NCBI GenBank assembly: GCA_012521615.1
Contig: JAAYMA010000100.1
Location: 1-56,778, forward strand
Source: Clostridiaceae bacterium
GTDB taxonomy: Bacteria > Bacillota > Clostridia > DSM-8532
Length of the DNA: 56,778 nt
Reading direction: 5' to 3'
The notes below the pieces were generated by a model. It was not told where the DNA came from and searched no databases. It worked only from the letters and a program-made list of their open reading frames with translations. Each line of letters opens with the position of its first letter. The stretch's first letter is position 1. Shown here in pieces: positions 135 to 6,626 of the stretch. The translations under genes were made by a program, and so were the position numbers.

Positions 135-725
135 TTATTTTATAATGGTTATATTTATATTATCCTTTTCAGAATTGACTTTTAATATTCTGTTAACCCG
201 GAAATTGCTCACCATCATCACTGACAAAACTATAGCAAGCAGCATATAAAAAATAACAAAATCCCAGGTATATTCGCTGTGTATATAACTGTTTATAAGC
301 AGAACACTTACCATTATGAATCCTGATGCAGTAATTGGAAGCCCAATATAATACTCACTGCTCTCCTGCAAATTATACCGTGCAAGCCGGAACACGCCTG
401 CCAGAGGATAAATCAGCACGATGATCATAATATACCATGGAACATATTTCATATTGGATATAAATACTACAACAGGTGCTATCCCAAAGGTTACAAAATC
501 AGCAAATGAATCCAATTGTTTGCCCAATTGAGAAGAGGTATTGAAATATCTTGCCAAATGGCCATCCAACATATCAAAAATAACAGCTACATATATCAAA
601 TAACATGCCAGCTTTATTCCGGACAAAGTTCTGTTGTGAATCATCAGACAAACAGCAAGTATCCCTATTACCATATTACAAACTGTGAGTGTATTAGGTA
701 AATATTTCAACATCACTGATTTCAC
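135..725 (-). CDS. pssA: CDP-alcohol phosphatidyltransferase, probable CDP-diacylglycerol-serine O-phosphatidyltransferase
   Basis: Integral membrane enzyme that would transfer phosphatidate from CDP-diacylglycerol to serine, giving phosphatidylserine. The 196-residue product has the full catalytic signature DG-x2-AR-x8-G-x3-D-x3-D at residues 54-76 (D54, G55, A58, R59, G68, D72, D76) and about five to six hydrophobic segments. The GTG at 725 is preferred because GAGGAGGG lies about 8 bases upstream; the in-frame ATG at 713 is too far from it. It overlaps the end of the preceding UPF0104 gene by about 30 bases and is the last gene of the feoA-feoB cluster. Serine specificity is inferred from overall resemblance to short Firmicute PssA; another alcohol substrate is possible. 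Confidence 0.85.
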   Translation of the reverse strand: MKSVMLKYLPNTLTVCNMVIGILAVCLMIHNRTLSGIKLACYLIYVAVIFDMLDGHLARYFNTSSQLGKQLDSFADFVTFGIAPVVVFISNMKYVPWYIMIIVLIYPLAGVFRLARYNLQESSEYYIGLPITASGFIMVSVLLINSYIHSEYTWDFVIFYMLLAIVLSVMMVSNFRVNRILKVNSEKDNINITIIK

Positions 726-1686
726 TGCTTTTCCCTCCTCTCAATTTCCATATACCTGCATATAAAAGACTGATAATAATAACAAACCAGAATGTTATAA
801 ACCTAAACAGCAATGTTATTGCCAAAGCATCATTGGAGTTAATCTGCATTACTATCAGCAGGCTTGTCATAGTGGCCTCAAAACTGCCTAACCCCCCGGG
901 CAGCAGAGGAAGCATTCCCATCATATAAGAAACAAAGGTGGCTCCTGTAAGGAAAATCCAGTCAAATCCGGTTGAAAACAGGCGTACCAACAAAATCATT
1001 TTCACAGGATAGAGTATCCATATACCAAAGGACAAAAGAAGCTGCCTGTACATCTCCCCCCTGATACTTTTCAGTACCTTAATATTTGACAGCAAGGTAA
1101 TCATAAACCTCTTAAAAGCAGCAGTCCTTCTATGTTTGGGAAATGTATTCCCAATTTTATTTTCCAGAAGCGAAGTGAATTTAAATATAAAAATCAGGGA
1201 ACCAATTAGGGCTAAGAGTAGGAAATAGACCACAGCCTTTATTATGCCGCTCTGAAAACCCTCAATCCTGCCTGATATATGGGCAAAGGCAAATAAATTA
1301 ATAACAAAAAAGCTGAAAAAACTGACCATTTTCTGAATGGTCACCAATATAGCTGCCTCTTGCGTTGAATATTTCATTTCATTTTTAAGAAGAATTGCCC
1401 TTGTTACTTCGCCGCCCACCTTGACTCCGGGGGTAACACTTTCAACAATCGAACCTCTTGCATTTACATAAAGCATCTTAAAAAAATTATGGTCCCTCCC
1501 CATGACTTTTCCGATTCTGCACCACTGGTAATTGACAAGGAGCTGGCTTATGACCTGTACCATCAATAATGCTGTAAATGCCAATGGAGAAACTTGTCTG
1601 ATACTGATAATAAAACCTGAAAAATCAAATTTCCAAAATGTCACTGACAAAAGTATGAAAAGCAGTATCCATATAAACTTTTTCAT
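694..1686 (-). CDS. UPF0104 / lysylphosphatidylglycerol-synthase-type transmembrane (flippase-like) protein
   Basis: About 330 residues with seven or eight hydrophobic helices and no soluble catalytic domain, matching the transmembrane half of the MprF/UPF0104 family. Visible family-like features are the RGSIVESVTPG segment near residue 80 followed by GGEVTRAILL, and the PLLPGGLGSFEA segment near residue 265. In MprF this half moves modified lipid across the membrane; stand-alone members are mostly uncharacterised. The ATG at 1686 is chosen because AGGGAG sits 8 bases upstream; the GTG two codons earlier is too close. It lies 12 bases after the nicotianamine-synthase-like gene and overlaps pssA, so it is probably co-transcribed and translationally coupled with both. 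A lipid-translocating role is inferred. Confidence 0.75.
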   Translation of the reverse strand: MKKFIWILLFILLSVTFWKFDFSGFIISIRQVSPLAFTALLMVQVISQLLVNYQWCRIGKVMGRDHNFFKMLYVNARGSIVESVTPGVKVGGEVTRAILLKNEMKYSTQEAAILVTIQKMVSFFSFFVINLFAFAHISGRIEGFQSGIIKAVVYFLLLALIGSLIFIFKFTSLLENKIGNTFPKHRRTAAFKRFMITLLSNIKVLKSIRGEMYRQLLLSFGIWILYPVKMILLVRLFSTGFDWIFLTGATFVSYMMGMLPLLPGGLGSFEATMTSLLIVMQINSNDALAITLLFRFITFWFVIIISLLYAGIWKLRGGKSSEISDVEIFT

Positions 1687-1698
1687 TTCCACGACTCC

Positions 1699-2259
1699 CT
1701 AAGCTACAATAAACAATGCGGTACTGTCAATGTTTCTCCAGTTATGAACAGCTTTTTTACAGCAATTCCGGAACAGTGAAAAGTCATCGGCCGAATAAAA
1801 TTTTTTTAGTCCCTTTTTGGGAACACGTACCAGAATTCTTGCACCATAAGGGCATTTTCGTTTCAGACTACAAAATACCTGCTGTATTGGATTTACCTGA
1901 ACGGCCATATGAATAACAGTATAATCTTTCGGAGATATGTCATTCCCATCACCATACAGAACCTCGATAGACTCTGTATATCCTAATTTAGAAATCAGCT
2001 GCCTTGCGATACACACGCAACAATAATCATTATCCACAATTGTCACATGAGCTCCGGTATACTCATGCAGCAGTATACCACTGAAGGGGCATGGCCCTCC
2101 GCCTATACATAAAATCCTGTCAGTGGATTTGATATCCGCTAAAGCAATCTCTTCCCTGATAAGTTTTTTATAATACAGTGACATGGCCTGATAGACCAAG
2201 ATATTTTTAGCAGCCAGCTGCTCCAAAAATTTTGTGGTTTTATGTATAAAGCATGCCAT
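1699..2259 (-). CDS. Small nicotianamine-synthase-like SAM-dependent enzyme
   Basis: A 186-residue Rossmann-type SAM-binding protein. The glycine-rich motif CIGGGPCPFSG is at residues 51-61 and an acidic VDND at 75-78. The stretch VIHMAVQVNP...GARILVRVPKKGLKKFYS (about 115-156) follows the layout of the nicotianamine synthase family (PF03059), which moves the 3-amino-3-carboxypropyl group of SAM. It is shorter than plant, archaeal or CntL-type enzymes (about 270-320 residues), mainly at the N-terminus, and has ten or more cysteines. The ATG at 2259 has AAGGGG about 10 bases upstream, only 19 bases after the feoB stop. Context suggests iron chemistry or lipid head-group modification; neither is shown. 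It could also be a generic methyltransferase. Confidence 0.65.
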   Translation of the reverse strand: MACFIHKTTKFLEQLAAKNILVYQAMSLYYKKLIREEIALADIKSTDRILCIGGGPCPFSGILLHEYTGAHVTIVDNDYCCVCIARQLISKLGYTESIEVLYGDGNDISPKDYTVIHMAVQVNPIQQVFCSLKRKCPYGARILVRVPKKGLKKFYSADDFSLFRNCCKKAVHNWRNIDSTALFIVA

Positions 2260-2280
2260 CTCAAAAACGCCCCTTATCAA

Positions 2281-4065
2281 TTACATAAACAGATGGGCAA
2301 TTTGATTTATAAGCCCTGCAACTGTGAAAGCAGTTACAACTGTTGAGGTTCCAATGGCCAATGCAACCTTTGTATTGAATTCCTTCGATAAAATTCCGAA
2401 GACAGAGAGACATGGCAGGTACAATAAGGCTACAGTTCCGCCTACAAAAGCCTGCAGTGCTGTCAATCCTTCAATAGCCAACAACGGTGCAACTGCCATC
2501 TCACGGCGCACAATTCCCAAAATCAGTGCAATTACTGCATCCTTCGGAAGTCCGAGCCAACCACTTACAATGGGTTCGAGGTATACAGCAATATAATTCA
2601 AAAGGCCTGATTCCTTCAACAATGCTGCAATTACAACAGACAACAGCATTGGTGCCTCTGCTTCCACAAGAAAATGTTTCATACGGAGCATTAATTTTTT
2701 GCCGTATGCTTTGGCATTGGGCATTAATAGATTGGGTATCTCAATAACCATAGGATCTACTTTTCCTTTTAAAATGCGGCTCAAAACAGTAGATACGGTT
2801 ATCATTATCACCAATGACAGGAGCAACATCAGCACTAACAGTACAGGAGAGAAGTTGGCAAACAGGCTTATTAAAGCTCCTGTCTGAGAAATACAGGGCA
2901 CGGCAAAACAAACAACGGCAGATATAATTAAACGTTCTTTTCTTGTTGTTGCAGTTCTTGAGCCGATAATGGCCGGCACTGCACATCCATATCCCATCAG
3001 GATAGTTATCATGCTGCCACCCTGAATTCCCATCTTACGCATTATATTGTCAAACAAAACACTCAGACGGGGCAGAACACCCGAATCCTCCAGAAATGAA
3101 AATACAACGTAAAATAGGAATACATACGGGAAAATAAGCGCTATAATCCATTCAAACCCGATAACAAAAATGCCATACTCACCAATGAGAATATTGAGCA
3201 AAACTCCTTCGGGAACAATGGCCGAAAACAGGGACTTGAAAAGCGGAACCAGTACATTATTGACCAGGGGTAGCAATAGCACAGCACGCAGAGCTTTACC
3301 GCCACCTACTATAACCCCCAGAGATAAAATAATTATTAATAAAGCGATGGGAATTCCAGGCCACGGTTTCAGCATACTTTTTCCCAGTCTGTCCAGAAAG
3401 CTTAAATTACCATCGACATTCTTTCTTACGCGGGAAGCGATATATTTGGCTCTGCTCCATATATCCAGTTCATTTCTGCTGCAACTTTGGCAGGACGGGC
3501 AGGCTGAGCAATTGCTGCAAGTGAACTGAGTACGGTTTAAAACATTTTGTAATTCTTGTTTTAACTCTTCTATACCCTCACCTTTTACAGCCACCGTCGG
3601 AACAACAGGTGCCCCTAATTCCCGGGAGAGCAGGCCCACATTTATTTCTGTACCATGTCTTTTGGCAACATCCAATAAGTTTAACGCATAAACTACAGGC
3701 ACATTATATTTTTGGATCTCAAGGCCAAGCTTAATATTTCTCTCCAGGTTGGTAGCATCCAACACACATATGACTGCAACGGGATTACTGTTCAAAAATC
3801 GAATAGCAACTTCCTCTGCTTCAGATGTGGCTTCCAGAGAATATGTACCAGGAACATCAATTAAAGTATATGTTTTATCACCTATGTTGACTGTTCCTTC
3901 TGTATAAGTGACAGTAGTTCCAGCAAAATTTGAACTTACCACATGAATACCCGTCATATTAGAAAAGAACACACTTTTTCCAACATTGGGATTACCCATT
4001 AATAAGATTTTATTGGGCTTTTCATAAATTCTTGGATCTTCATTTATGTCATGACATTTGGCCAA
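2281..4065 (-). CDS. feoB: Ferrous iron transport protein B
   Basis: GTP-gated Fe(II) importer of 594 residues in the cytoplasmic membrane. The N-terminal G domain shows G1 GNPNVGKS (24-31), G3 DVPG (70-73) and G4 NLLD (129-132). The membrane part has about eight helices with the GYGCAVPAIIGSRT Gate motif and the later GIVRREMA motif. Between G domain and membrane core lies a cysteine ladder, C183, C186, C189, C192 and C195, each two residues apart, which may bind metal or an iron-sulfur cluster. It starts 5 bases after feoA and ends just before the nicotianamine-synthase-like gene. Length is short for FeoB but both Gate/Nucleos halves appear present. Confidence 0.96.
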   Translation of the reverse strand: MAKCHDINEDPRIYEKPNKILLMGNPNVGKSVFFSNMTGIHVVSSNFAGTTVTYTEGTVNIGDKTYTLIDVPGTYSLEATSEAEEVAIRFLNSNPVAVICVLDATNLERNIKLGLEIQKYNVPVVYALNLLDVAKRHGTEINVGLLSRELGAPVVPTVAVKGEGIEELKQELQNVLNRTQFTCSNCSACPSCQSCSRNELDIWSRAKYIASRVRKNVDGNLSFLDRLGKSMLKPWPGIPIALLIIILSLGVIVGGGKALRAVLLLPLVNNVLVPLFKSLFSAIVPEGVLLNILIGEYGIFVIGFEWIIALIFPYVFLFYVVFSFLEDSGVLPRLSVLFDNIMRKMGIQGGSMITILMGYGCAVPAIIGSRTATTRKERLIISAVVCFAVPCISQTGALISLFANFSPVLLVLMLLLSLVIMITVSTVLSRILKGKVDPMVIEIPNLLMPNAKAYGKKLMLRMKHFLVEAEAPMLLSVVIAALLKESGLLNYIAVYLEPIVSGWLGLPKDAVIALILGIVRREMAVAPLLAIEGLTALQAFVGGTVALLYLPCLSVFGILSKEFNTKVALAIGTSTVVTAFTVAGLINQIAHLFM

Positions 4066-4070
4066 ACCAT

Positions 4071-4313
4071 TTACCCCCTAACTATTATCTTTTCAGCAAT
4101 ATCCTTACCAATGGCAATTTCGCTGGAATCTACCTTAATCAAAACCGGCCCGCCAAATCTATGAGTCATCAGTTTCTGAATCATTGCATTCTCAATAATA
4201 CCCAAGCTCTTTAAAATACCAAGCTCAGGTGCATTTACGACTATATACTGGAGGTTATCTTTGGCATTATAAATGCTCTGATGGCTTCCATTGAAGTTAT
4301 TTTCTCCTTTCAC
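4071..4313 (-). CDS. feoA: FeoA domain protein, ferrous iron transport protein A
   Basis: An 80-residue single SH3-like FeoA domain; in characterised systems FeoA binds the FeoB machinery and is needed for iron uptake. Recognisable family features are the region APELGILKSLGI near residues 28-39, the basic LMTHRFGGPVLIKVDSSEIAIGKDIAEKI segment and the small size. The start is a GTG at 4313 with GGAGAGGGG just upstream; no ATG precedes the conserved domain. The first 20 residues are polar and poorly conserved in appearance. It is the first gene of the feo cluster and lies 3' of a promoter region with a dyad that could be iron-regulated. Confidence 0.85.
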   Translation of the reverse strand: MKGENNFNGSHQSIYNAKDNLQYIVVNAPELGILKSLGIIENAMIQKLMTHRFGGPVLIKVDSSEIAIGKDIAEKIIVRG

Positions 4314-4367: not shown

Positions 4368-4422
4368 GTTAGTTATGTCTAACATTAATATATGTGATAT
4401 CACATCGGCTATTATTTGTCAA
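4368..4422 (-). promoter_or_regulatory. Putative feo promoter with two dyads
   Basis: Reading leftward, TTGACA (4417-4422) is a good -35 box. A 14-base perfect palindrome, ATGTGATATCACAT (4392-4405), covers the likely -10 region, which is otherwise weak. Downstream is a second dyad, GTTAG-N6-CTAAC (4368-4383), whose half-sites resemble those in DtxR/IdeR-type iron operators. Fur-type and DtxR-type control of feo are both known in Firmicutes. The regulator here is unknown. Confidence 0.4.
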
Positions 4423-4574: not shown

Positions 4575-5309
4575 TTAAAGAATCCACTTTTTCTTTATAT
4601 TGCGATGACATAAGTGAAATAATAGAAGTGAAAAAATCAGCATGACAAAAGTGTTGAACGTCGCATTAAAGAGAGAGTTGCCTGTAATTGTACTGTTAAG
4701 TATATCCGCTCCATAAGTCAGGGGCAATAAAAATGATATGGGCTTTATTAAGGCCGGCAATTTGTCAACCGGTATAAATAACCCGCATAAAAACAGCATT
4801 GGAAATCTGAAAAAGTTTGAAAATGTCTGAGCTTCAAAGACTTCCTTTGCAGATATTGCAATCAGTAGACCTAACAGTGCTGAAGTAACAGCCATTAGAA
4901 AAACTGCAACAAACAACAAGCCCCAGTTAATTCCGCTCAGATTTATGAAGAAAGCAGCAAACACAACAGGTATAAATCCGTTTATTATACCGAACAAAAC
5001 CGCTCCCAGAATTTTGGCAAAGACCAGTGTACTTATATTTATGGGTGCAAGCAGCAATCTGTCGAAAGATCTGCCCTTTCTCTCAAAAGTTATTGTGACA
5101 GCCAGCATGGAAGTAGTCCCAAACAATACACTCATGGACATTAAGCCCGGAAGCAGTGCTGAAATTTCTATGTTGCCCTGTGAACGGATAAGCTGCATTA
5201 ATGTCCAGGAAAGAGGAAATATAATCCCCCAGCTGATGTTTGGTGGTTTTAAATAGTAATTCCTGATGTCTTTTTTTAAGATATTCCAAAAAGCAATCAA
5301 TGATTTCAT
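4575..5309 (-). CDS. ABC-2 type transporter permease
   Basis: A 244-residue membrane protein with six hydrophobic segments and the ABC-2 permease layout. After the first two helices comes the TFERKGRSFDRLLLAPI loop (about residues 74-90), typical of the coupling region of ABC-2 exporters. Later come LCGLFIPVDKLP and a final helix pair. It overlaps the ATPase gene by 4 bases (ATGA), so the two are translated together and very likely form one exporter. The substrate is unknown. Many ArsR-linked ABC-2 pairs are drug or toxic-compound exporters, but nothing here identifies the cargo. Confidence 0.85.
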   Translation of the reverse strand: MKSLIAFWNILKKDIRNYYLKPPNISWGIIFPLSWTLMQLIRSQGNIEISALLPGLMSMSVLFGTTSMLAVTITFERKGRSFDRLLLAPINISTLVFAKILGAVLFGIINGFIPVVFAAFFINLSGINWGLLFVAVFLMAVTSALLGLLIAISAKEVFEAQTFSNFFRFPMLFLCGLFIPVDKLPALIKPISFLLPLTYGADILNSTITGNSLFNATFNTFVMLIFSLLLFHLCHRNIKKKWIL

Positions 5310-6268
5310 CCCGCAACCCCGCCTTTGTCATTTAATTTTGAGGCTTTAATATCCGTTATTTTAACGAACACTTCTTCCAGTGTAGATTTTATCTCTTTTG
5401 CCTCATAAACCGAAATCCCTTTATTTTTCAATAACTCAATAACAGGATATAACTCCAGCCGTTCTTTCGAGGTAATCAGACACAAATTATCATCAATGAT
5501 TTCTGCACTGCAGTTCTTAATAGTGTTTTCCAGTTCTTCCCCGATTTCTTTTGTGATTCTGTCAAGCTTAAGCTGGATTTTATATTCTTTGCCCGAATCA
5601 CTCATCAATTCAGTAATTAAACCGGTCCTTACAATCCTGCCGTTTACAATAAAAGCTATCCTGTCACAAATACGTTCAGCCTCTTCTATATAGTGAGTAG
5701 TGACAAAAATAGTTTTTCCTTGTTTTTTAAGATCCAATATCAGCTCTCTTATCTGTATTGCACTTTCGACATCTATTCCTGTAGTTGGTTCATCCAGGAA
5801 CAAGATTTTGGGGTTGTGTATTATCCCTGCAGCTATGGTGAGTTTTCGTTTCATTCCTTTTGAGTAGGTTTTAAATGGACGGTTTGCCGCCTTTGTCAGA
5901 TTGAACTGTTCCAATAGTTCAGCCGCTCTTTTTTCACGTTCTTCTTTGCGCATACCATATAAAGAAGCACAAAAGCATAAGTTCTCAAAACCATTCATTT
6001 CATCATAAAGGTTATTTTCATCAGGAATAACACCTATAATCCTTTGAACTTTTTTGACGTCCTTTACAGCATCAATACCATCAATATATATTTGACCACC
6101 GGTAGGTCTGGACAGCCCTGTCATCATATTTATTGTTGAAGTTTTACCTGCACCGTTTGGACCCAGAAATCCAAATACTTCACCTGATCTGACATCAAAG
6201 GAAATATCGTCAACTGCTTTAACATCCCCGTATACTTTTTTAAGATTAGTTACACTGATGATTCCCAT
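5306..6268 (-). CDS. ABC transporter ATP-binding protein
   Basis: ATPase of the DrrA/CcmA-like exporter class, about 320 residues. Visible motifs are Walker A GPNGAGKT, Q-loop region PDENNLYDEMNGFENL, a variant signature YSKGMKRKL in place of LSGGQ, Walker B ILFLDEPTTGID and the switch histidine in FVTTHYIEEA. A C-terminal extension of about 90 residues follows, as in DrrA-type proteins. An upstream in-frame extension exists, but the ATG at 6268 (MGIISVTNLKK) is chosen because AAGGAGAAGGAG lies directly before it and the longer form would run through arsR. It starts 4 bases after arsR and overlaps the permease gene. Confidence 0.9.
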   Translation of the reverse strand: MGIISVTNLKKVYGDVKAVDDISFDVRSGEVFGFLGPNGAGKTSTINMMTGLSRPTGGQIYIDGIDAVKDVKKVQRIIGVIPDENNLYDEMNGFENLCFCASLYGMRKEEREKRAAELLEQFNLTKAANRPFKTYSKGMKRKLTIAAGIIHNPKILFLDEPTTGIDVESAIQIRELILDLKKQGKTIFVTTHYIEEAERICDRIAFIVNGRIVRTGLITELMSDSGKEYKIQLKLDRITKEIGEELENTIKNCSAEIIDDNLCLITSKERLELYPVIELLKNKGISVYEAKEIKSTLEEVFVKITDIKASKLNDKGGVAG

Positions 6269-6272
6269 GACT

Positions 6273-6626
6273 TTATACTCCTTCTCCTTTTTGACAACAG
6301 GATCCGGAGGCGCCCGAGCAATTCTGACTGTGATTTGATGGATTGGCGTTGCAGGTTTTTCTTTCGATTTTGGAAAGTTCATGGATTTGTGTAGCAAGTT
6401 TGCGCAGCATATCCCGCTCCACATTATAGTGCATGAAATATCCTTTTTTCACTCCTGTAACCAGACCTGTTTCCTTTAAGACTCTTATATGCTGCGATAT
6501 AGCTGATTCAGACATTTCAAGCTTTTCAGACAATGCTCTTACACAATAATTGTGCTGCAAAAGCAAAATTATGATATTGTATCTCGTTTCATCCGCTATG
6601 GCTTTTAGTACCCTGGTTATCTCCAT
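6273..6626 (-). CDS. ArsR/SmtB-family transcriptional regulator with cysteine-rich tail
   Basis: A 117-residue winged-helix repressor. The helix-turn-helix lies around residues 30-60 (CVRALSEKLEMSESAISQHIRVLKETGLV), followed by the wing KKGYFMHYNV. The last 30 residues are Ser/Asn-rich with four cysteines (one Cys, then Cys, then a CC pair), which could be a metal or thiol sensor site; this is inference. It is the first gene of an operon with an ABC ATPase and permease. Its ribosome-binding site AGGAGGT lies in the 3' arm of a perfect hairpin in its own leader, and two matching operators sit upstream. Autoregulation is very likely. Confidence 0.88.
   Translation of the reverse strand: MEITRVLKAIADETRYNIIILLLQHNYCVRALSEKLEMSESAISQHIRVLKETGLVTGVKKGYFMHYNVERDMLRKLATQIHELSKIERKTCNANPSNHSQNCSGASGSCCQKGEGV

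Follow-up and report, generated by a model that had tools for sequence, protein, structure and literature searches.

A ferrous-iron uptake operon with a nicotianamine-synthase-like enzyme, a lipid flippase and a phosphatidylserine synthase: a possible chelating phospholipid for FeoB

Why should an operon for ferrous-iron uptake carry a relative of nicotianamine synthase (NAS), a lipid flippase and a phospholipid synthase? The question is raised by positions 135 to 4313 of a 56,778-nucleotide contig of Clostridiaceae bacterium (GenBank assembly GCA_012521615.1, contig JAAYMA010000100.1; this whole stretch is hereafter called the window). The feoA-feoB-NAS-flippase-pssA operon runs from 4313 to 135 on the minus strand as five tightly packed open reading frames (ORFs) (Table 1), all present and spaced as a first-pass annotation of the sequence had claimed. 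The genes feoA and feoB are separated by 5 bases, and pssA (725-135) overlaps the flippase gene (1692-694). Two starts are available to the NAS-like gene, a TTG at 2280, with a gap of 0 bases to feoB, and an ATG at 2259, preceded by the ribosome-binding-like AAGGGG and leaving a gap of 21 bases; the ATG is more likely. Herein, we propose, with about an even chance of being right, that the operon couples ferrous-iron uptake to a dedicated chelating lipid, made from phosphatidylserine (PS) and flipped outward to serve FeoB.

Several lines of evidence bear on this proposal. First, the gene set is conserved. A scan with the enzyme alone, using one genome per species for 84,980 species, recovered 72 NAS-like loci that were not selected for their neighbours. 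The feoB gene lies immediately upstream of the NAS-like gene at 68 of 70 testable loci, the flippase gene immediately downstream at 64 of 69, and pssA comes next in order at 42 of 63. Thus, the co-occurrence next to feoB is confirmed and the association is far above chance. Clostridium mobile, Tissierella, Tepidanaerobacter, Alkaliphilus, Natronincola, Heliorestis and Salipaludibacillus are among the carriers, together with one Coriobacteriia metagenome-assembled genome (MAG) and the methanogen Methanosalsum natronophilum. Within the Bacillota, 47 of 398 genomes have a NAS-like match at 1e-10, a few of these being longer CntL-sized proteins, and the enzyme itself is found in approximately 10%. 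Alternative gene orders also recur (feoA-NAS-flippase-feoB, NAS-flippase-feoA-feoB and NAS-flippase-NAS-feoA-feoB), and fusions are observed between flippase and NAS in a single ORF (L156) and between flippase and PssA (L014 and L125), which link the three non-Feo proteins to one pathway. Judged by gene content, this is a widespread and apparently undescribed module. A related arrangement is seen at L157 (G660:C1:795000-805000), where a second NAS-like gene has a ZnuABC-type metal transporter before it and a VTT/DedA-family membrane protein behind it; this may be the same scheme with different partners.

Second, the small enzyme is a genuine relative of nicotianamine synthases, with a domain for S-adenosylmethionine (SAM) of the NAS type, as the first-pass annotation had proposed from motifs. 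For PF03059 (cut-off 27.1 bits), the score of the window protein, 27.0-27.1 bits, is by itself borderline; of 18 homologues, 16 match this profile with an E value of 0.01 or lower, the best reaching 4e-11. The NAS of M. thermautotrophicus (MtNAS) is the top phmmer match among PDB sequences (6e-12), and a family profile recovers MtNAS at 3.5e-22 and the staphylopine enzyme CntL at 6e-16. The AlphaFold2 model (predicted local distance difference test, pLDDT, 87.9) aligns over its full length, residues 1-186, to MtNAS 69-264 (Z 21.6, 183 residues) and also to CntL 72-263 (Z 19.5); NAS structures rank first among the PDB matches, and ordinary methyltransferases in the same search reach Z 17.2 and below. 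From the structural match ranges, residue 13 corresponds to MtNAS 81 and CntL 84; an alignment of the archaeal homologue places the invariant Glu on CntL Glu84, which is mutated to Gln (E84Q) in PDB 7c9k, and Y30 aligns with MtNAS Tyr107 in the sequence alignment. In MtNAS, Glu81 and Tyr107 form the catalytic pair that activates the acceptor amine (PMC10491745). Across 134 homologues, zero substitutions were observed at E13, Y30, E37, G53, G55, P58, D76 and R145, two truncated entries being gapped at E13 or Y30. The predicted activity is transfer of the aminocarboxypropyl group from SAM with release of methylthioadenosine.

These computations also bear on whether the enzyme could simply methylate a phospholipid, as a plain SAM methyltransferase. 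The Rossmann methyltransferase fold is shared and weak matches to methyltransferase families exist; however, the NAS structures come clearly first and the Glu/Tyr pair is kept without substitution, and for these reasons we rejected this as the most likely reading and regard it as extremely improbable. Weak matches from the same genus, in ORFs of 311-327 aa, cover the SAM-domain core only, and these ORFs look like ordinary methyltransferases, PrmA-type as judged by length. No match was obtained in a first contig scan using the single window protein, and no NAS-like relative was found in the viral contigs searched.

The window enzyme resembles MtNAS (PDB 3FPE/3FPJ) and CntL (PDB 7C9M) in predicted fold, SAM-site motif, catalytic Glu (81/84) and Tyr (107), but shares 20-23% identity with them, scores well under the cut-off of the CntL equivalog NF033601 (31.7 bits against 350) and has no N-terminal domain, beginning at the equivalent of MtNAS residue 69 with 1-68 absent. 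This absence may open the active site to a larger acceptor.

Third, the transporter is, by family and predicted fold, a lipid flippase. It matches TIGR00374 at 90.2 bits, and the six best, and only convincing, PDB matches of its AlphaFold2 model (pLDDT 92.5) are MprF structures, two of them deposited with lysyl-phosphatidylglycerol (lysyl-PG) bound. The domain family and fold are those of the MprF flippase domain, which carries lysyl-PG, of the glucosaminyl-phosphatidylglycerol (GlcN-PG) flippase and of HexF. The window protein differs in having no aminoacyl-transferase domain, in falling under the MprF and GlcN-PG equivalog cut-offs (for the bifunctional MprF equivalog NF033480, 26.2 bits against 600, the 332-aa protein being the flippase part only) and in its NAS-like partner. 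Like HexF of C. difficile, a stand-alone MprF-type flippase beside a lipid-modifying enzyme (PMC10128005), it stands alone beside a predicted lipid-modifying enzyme. Since MprF-type flippases carry charge-modified lipids, with HexF as the stand-alone example, the modified lipid might serve surface charge or envelope defence, as lysyl-PG from MprF does, and be merely co-regulated with feoAB. We consider this very unlikely, given the near-obligate adjacency to feoB across Bacillota and a methanogen, the candidate iron operator described below and a class of chemistry known for metal chelators.

Fourth, the distribution of pssA and of the PS decarboxylase gene, psd, suggests which lipid is involved. 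The genome of the window is 99.94% complete; the operon pssA is the sole one over the TIGR00473 cut-off, and there is no PS decarboxylase. A pssA is present in 79 of 84 module genomes. In 44 of the 84 it is in the operon, and psd is present in 0 of these 44; the other 40 comprise 31 with psd and a pssA elsewhere, 4 with pssA and no psd, and 5 with neither. Cultured carriers include Tissierella simiarum MSJ-40, Tepidanaerobacter sp. GT38 and Natronobacillus azotifigens, in which pssA is part of the operon, and Salipaludibacillus aurantiacus, Natronincola peptidivorans and Heliorestis acidaminivorans, in which it is remote. The second half of this comparison was run after the first half had been seen, with the outcome expected beforehand, and the pattern held, psd occurring in 0 of 21 entries with operon pssA (two of them duplicates) and in 13 of 15 without. 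Among the near relatives, 17 lack the module; both pssA and psd are missing from 16 of these and present in one (G006). Read most simply, the pattern indicates that the module depends on PS, supplying a synthase to hosts without one and omitting it in hosts that make PS; PS is probably the substrate pool. Because genomes with operon pssA have no psd, phosphatidylethanolamine (PE) is not the acceptor there and the PS made by the operon PssA is not destined for PE; PS is the likely acceptor.

The operon pssA would be explained equally well if the order of the steps were reversed, the NAS-like enzyme making N-(3-amino-3-carboxypropyl)-serine, which the operon PssA would join to CDP-diacylglycerol before flipping. 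The operon PssA, however, is like ordinary PS synthases: it matches M. jannaschii PSS (MjPSS), an archaeal PS synthase, at 4.8e-17, and MjPSS (PDB 7B1K) is its best PDB match; what sets it apart from PssA and MjPSS is its place in an iron operon of genomes without PS decarboxylase. In addition, in the 31 genomes with remote pssA and psd, an ordinary PssA would have to take the bulkier substrate. This order is therefore quite unlikely.

A further alternative is a soluble metallophore, in which the NAS-like enzyme modifies a free amino acid (serine, glutamate or histidine), the flippase-like protein exports the product and PssA is a bystander or a membrane adapter. Characterised NAS and CntL act on soluble acceptors (PMC10491745), and some module genomes have no pssA. 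Against this, the operon contains neither the opine dehydrogenase CntM nor a dedicated exporter of the EamA or MFS type (the search for CntM covered the operon only), and an MprF-type lipid flippase takes the exporter's place; the N-terminal domain seen in the enzymes that act on soluble substrates is absent; and neither the rule of pssA presence nor the flippase-PssA fusions would be explained. We regard a soluble product as unlikely. The first-pass annotation had offered two readings, an opine-like chelator or a lipid modification like that of BtaA, and neither of the outcomes that it had named as refuting its idea, a plain methyltransferase fold or a lack of co-occurrence, was observed. The evidence points to a combination of both readings, in which a PS-based lipid carries the chelating head group; a soluble pathway of the staphylopine type has the lower probability, given that the operon has no opine dehydrogenase and a flippase is found where a small-molecule exporter is expected. 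BtaA, of betaine-lipid synthesis, acts on the oxygen of diacylglycerol, and like the enzyme proposed here it transfers the SAM aminocarboxypropyl group onto a lipid. By descent BtaA is unrelated: hmmscan gave no BtaA-family match in the window enzyme, and BtaA is not homologous to NAS (PMC10491745).

The link with iron is suggested by the operon context and by the region upstream of it. The module FeoB is short (594 aa), with a Cys-rich CxxC linker between the GTPase and the membrane part, and the window FeoB gave no match to the cytosolic helical domain PF17910; a CxxC in the linker is present in 37 of 104 aligned module FeoBs. The dyad 5' of feoA, GTTAG-N6-CTAAC, occurs exactly at 3 places in the 2.2 Mb genome, the other two being approximately 100 bases 5' of a FecCD-type iron ATP-binding cassette (ABC) transporter operon and inside an S-layer gene. 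The shorter form TTAG-N6-CTAA is found 5' of feoA at 27 of 66 module loci, compared with 0.67 expected. Its half-sites resemble those of DtxR/IdeR, which makes the dyad a candidate DtxR-like operator and suggests that the operon may be regulated by iron. A search for Fur boxes 5' of feoA returned one match only. A perfect palindrome of CRP/FNR-like appearance, ATGTGATATCACAT, also lies 5' of feoA (4392-4405), and one of similar type was seen 5' of feoA only in L109. The genome has a second feo locus (L211; G000:C84:15500-21000), at which a DtxR-type regulator is divergent from feoA and feoB, with a FeoB_Cyto domain, consists of two overlapping ORFs (1967-2704 and 2689-4116) and is thus split or frameshifted.

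Table 1. Operon genes and the upstream dyad, with positions in the window
Feature	Position	Strand	Basis
feoA	4071..4313	-	PF04023 40.4 bits, cut-off 23
feoB	2281..4065	-	TIGR00437 318.6 bits, cut-off 315.65; PF02421, Gate, FeoB_C
NAS-like predicted 3-amino-3-carboxypropyl transferase, 186 aa	1699..2259	-	profile, fold, conserved residues
MprF-type lipid flippase, stand-alone LPG_synthase_TM domain	694..1692	-	PF03706 139.5 bits, cut-off 33.4
pssA, CDP-diacylglycerol-serine O-phosphatidyltransferase	135..725	-	TIGR00473 109.7 bits, cut-off 107
dyad GTTAG-N6-CTAAC, 5' of feoA	4368..4383		candidate DtxR-family operator

Further 5' of the operon, at 4575-6626, a small ORF resembling an ArsR-type regulator (6273-6626) was noted by eye, with an ABC transporter pair after it.

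Taken together, we propose a chelating-lipid pathway as follows. PssA would make PS, a membrane-anchored alpha-amino acid. NAS enzymes act on the alpha-amine of free amino acids, and the same chemistry is proposed here on the serine amine of PS: through its Glu-Tyr pair, the NAS-like enzyme would attach the 3-amino-3-carboxypropyl moiety of SAM to this alpha-amino nitrogen, once or repeatedly, with methylthioadenosine as the by-product. The product would carry a nicotianamine-like aminopolycarboxylate head group. The MprF-type flippase would then expose this lipid on the outer leaflet; there it may collect Fe(II) near FeoB and hand it over, and iron shortage would switch on the set through the DtxR-like site. 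Stated in chemical terms, the proposal is a phospholipid metallophore, namely N-(3-amino-3-carboxypropyl)-phosphatidylserine or a similar compound, which a NAS adapted to the membrane would make for the sole purpose of Fe(II) uptake by FeoB; the carriers are anaerobic or alkaliphilic bacteria and at least one methanogen, and we give the proposal about an even chance. Computation supports the class of the enzyme, the lipid flippase, the need for PS and the iron setting, whereas the acceptor, the product, its flipping, metal binding, delivery to FeoB and the regulation are inferred.

Several observations weigh against this proposal. The pssA label is clustered on the enzyme tree, with 6 changes of which at least 3 are forced, and because of this clustering the Fisher p of 3e-15 for the pssA/psd pattern overstates independence and is only indicative. 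Five module genomes (G702, G694, G735, G428 and G506) have no pssA by TIGR00473, phospholipase-D-type PS synthases not having been searched there, so another acceptor must serve in them. Each of these five carries two NAS-like genes (L156, L165/L166, L169, L170 and L172), and in four of the five both are in one feo operon; we speculate that one copy supplies a lipid-borne amino acid and the other extends it. In addition, a same-strand adjacent flippase is absent at five Defluviitaleaceae MAG loci, a few NAS-like copies occur without feo genes, and an amphipathic first helix that could act as a membrane anchor was not significant in 5 of 7 members tested. At L162 and L164 (G459 and G497), extra NAS-like genes without feo genes lie near a gene of the Prismane/CO dehydrogenase family, and L162 retains an adjoining flippase.

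The component families are known, and no description of the module was found in the open-licence literature; novelty would lie in their combination and in a metallophore based on a phospholipid. Mycobactins and marinobactins are amphiphilic, membrane-associated metal chelators, as the proposed lipid would be, but they are of the acylated peptide type, bind Fe(III), are not phospholipids and have no tie to FeoB. To our knowledge, a phospholipid metallophore would be without precedent. Bacteria import ferrous iron mainly through Feo, and the way in which Fe(II) is collected outside the cell ahead of FeoB is an open question, to which a dedicated chelating lipid would, if the proposal is true, be the answer for many anaerobes; cultured hosts of the module exist. 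Metallophore chemistry would then reach from secreted small molecules to membrane lipids, PS would gain a role beyond that of PE precursor, and the nicotianamine-synthase family would be widened to include lipid-modifying enzymes.

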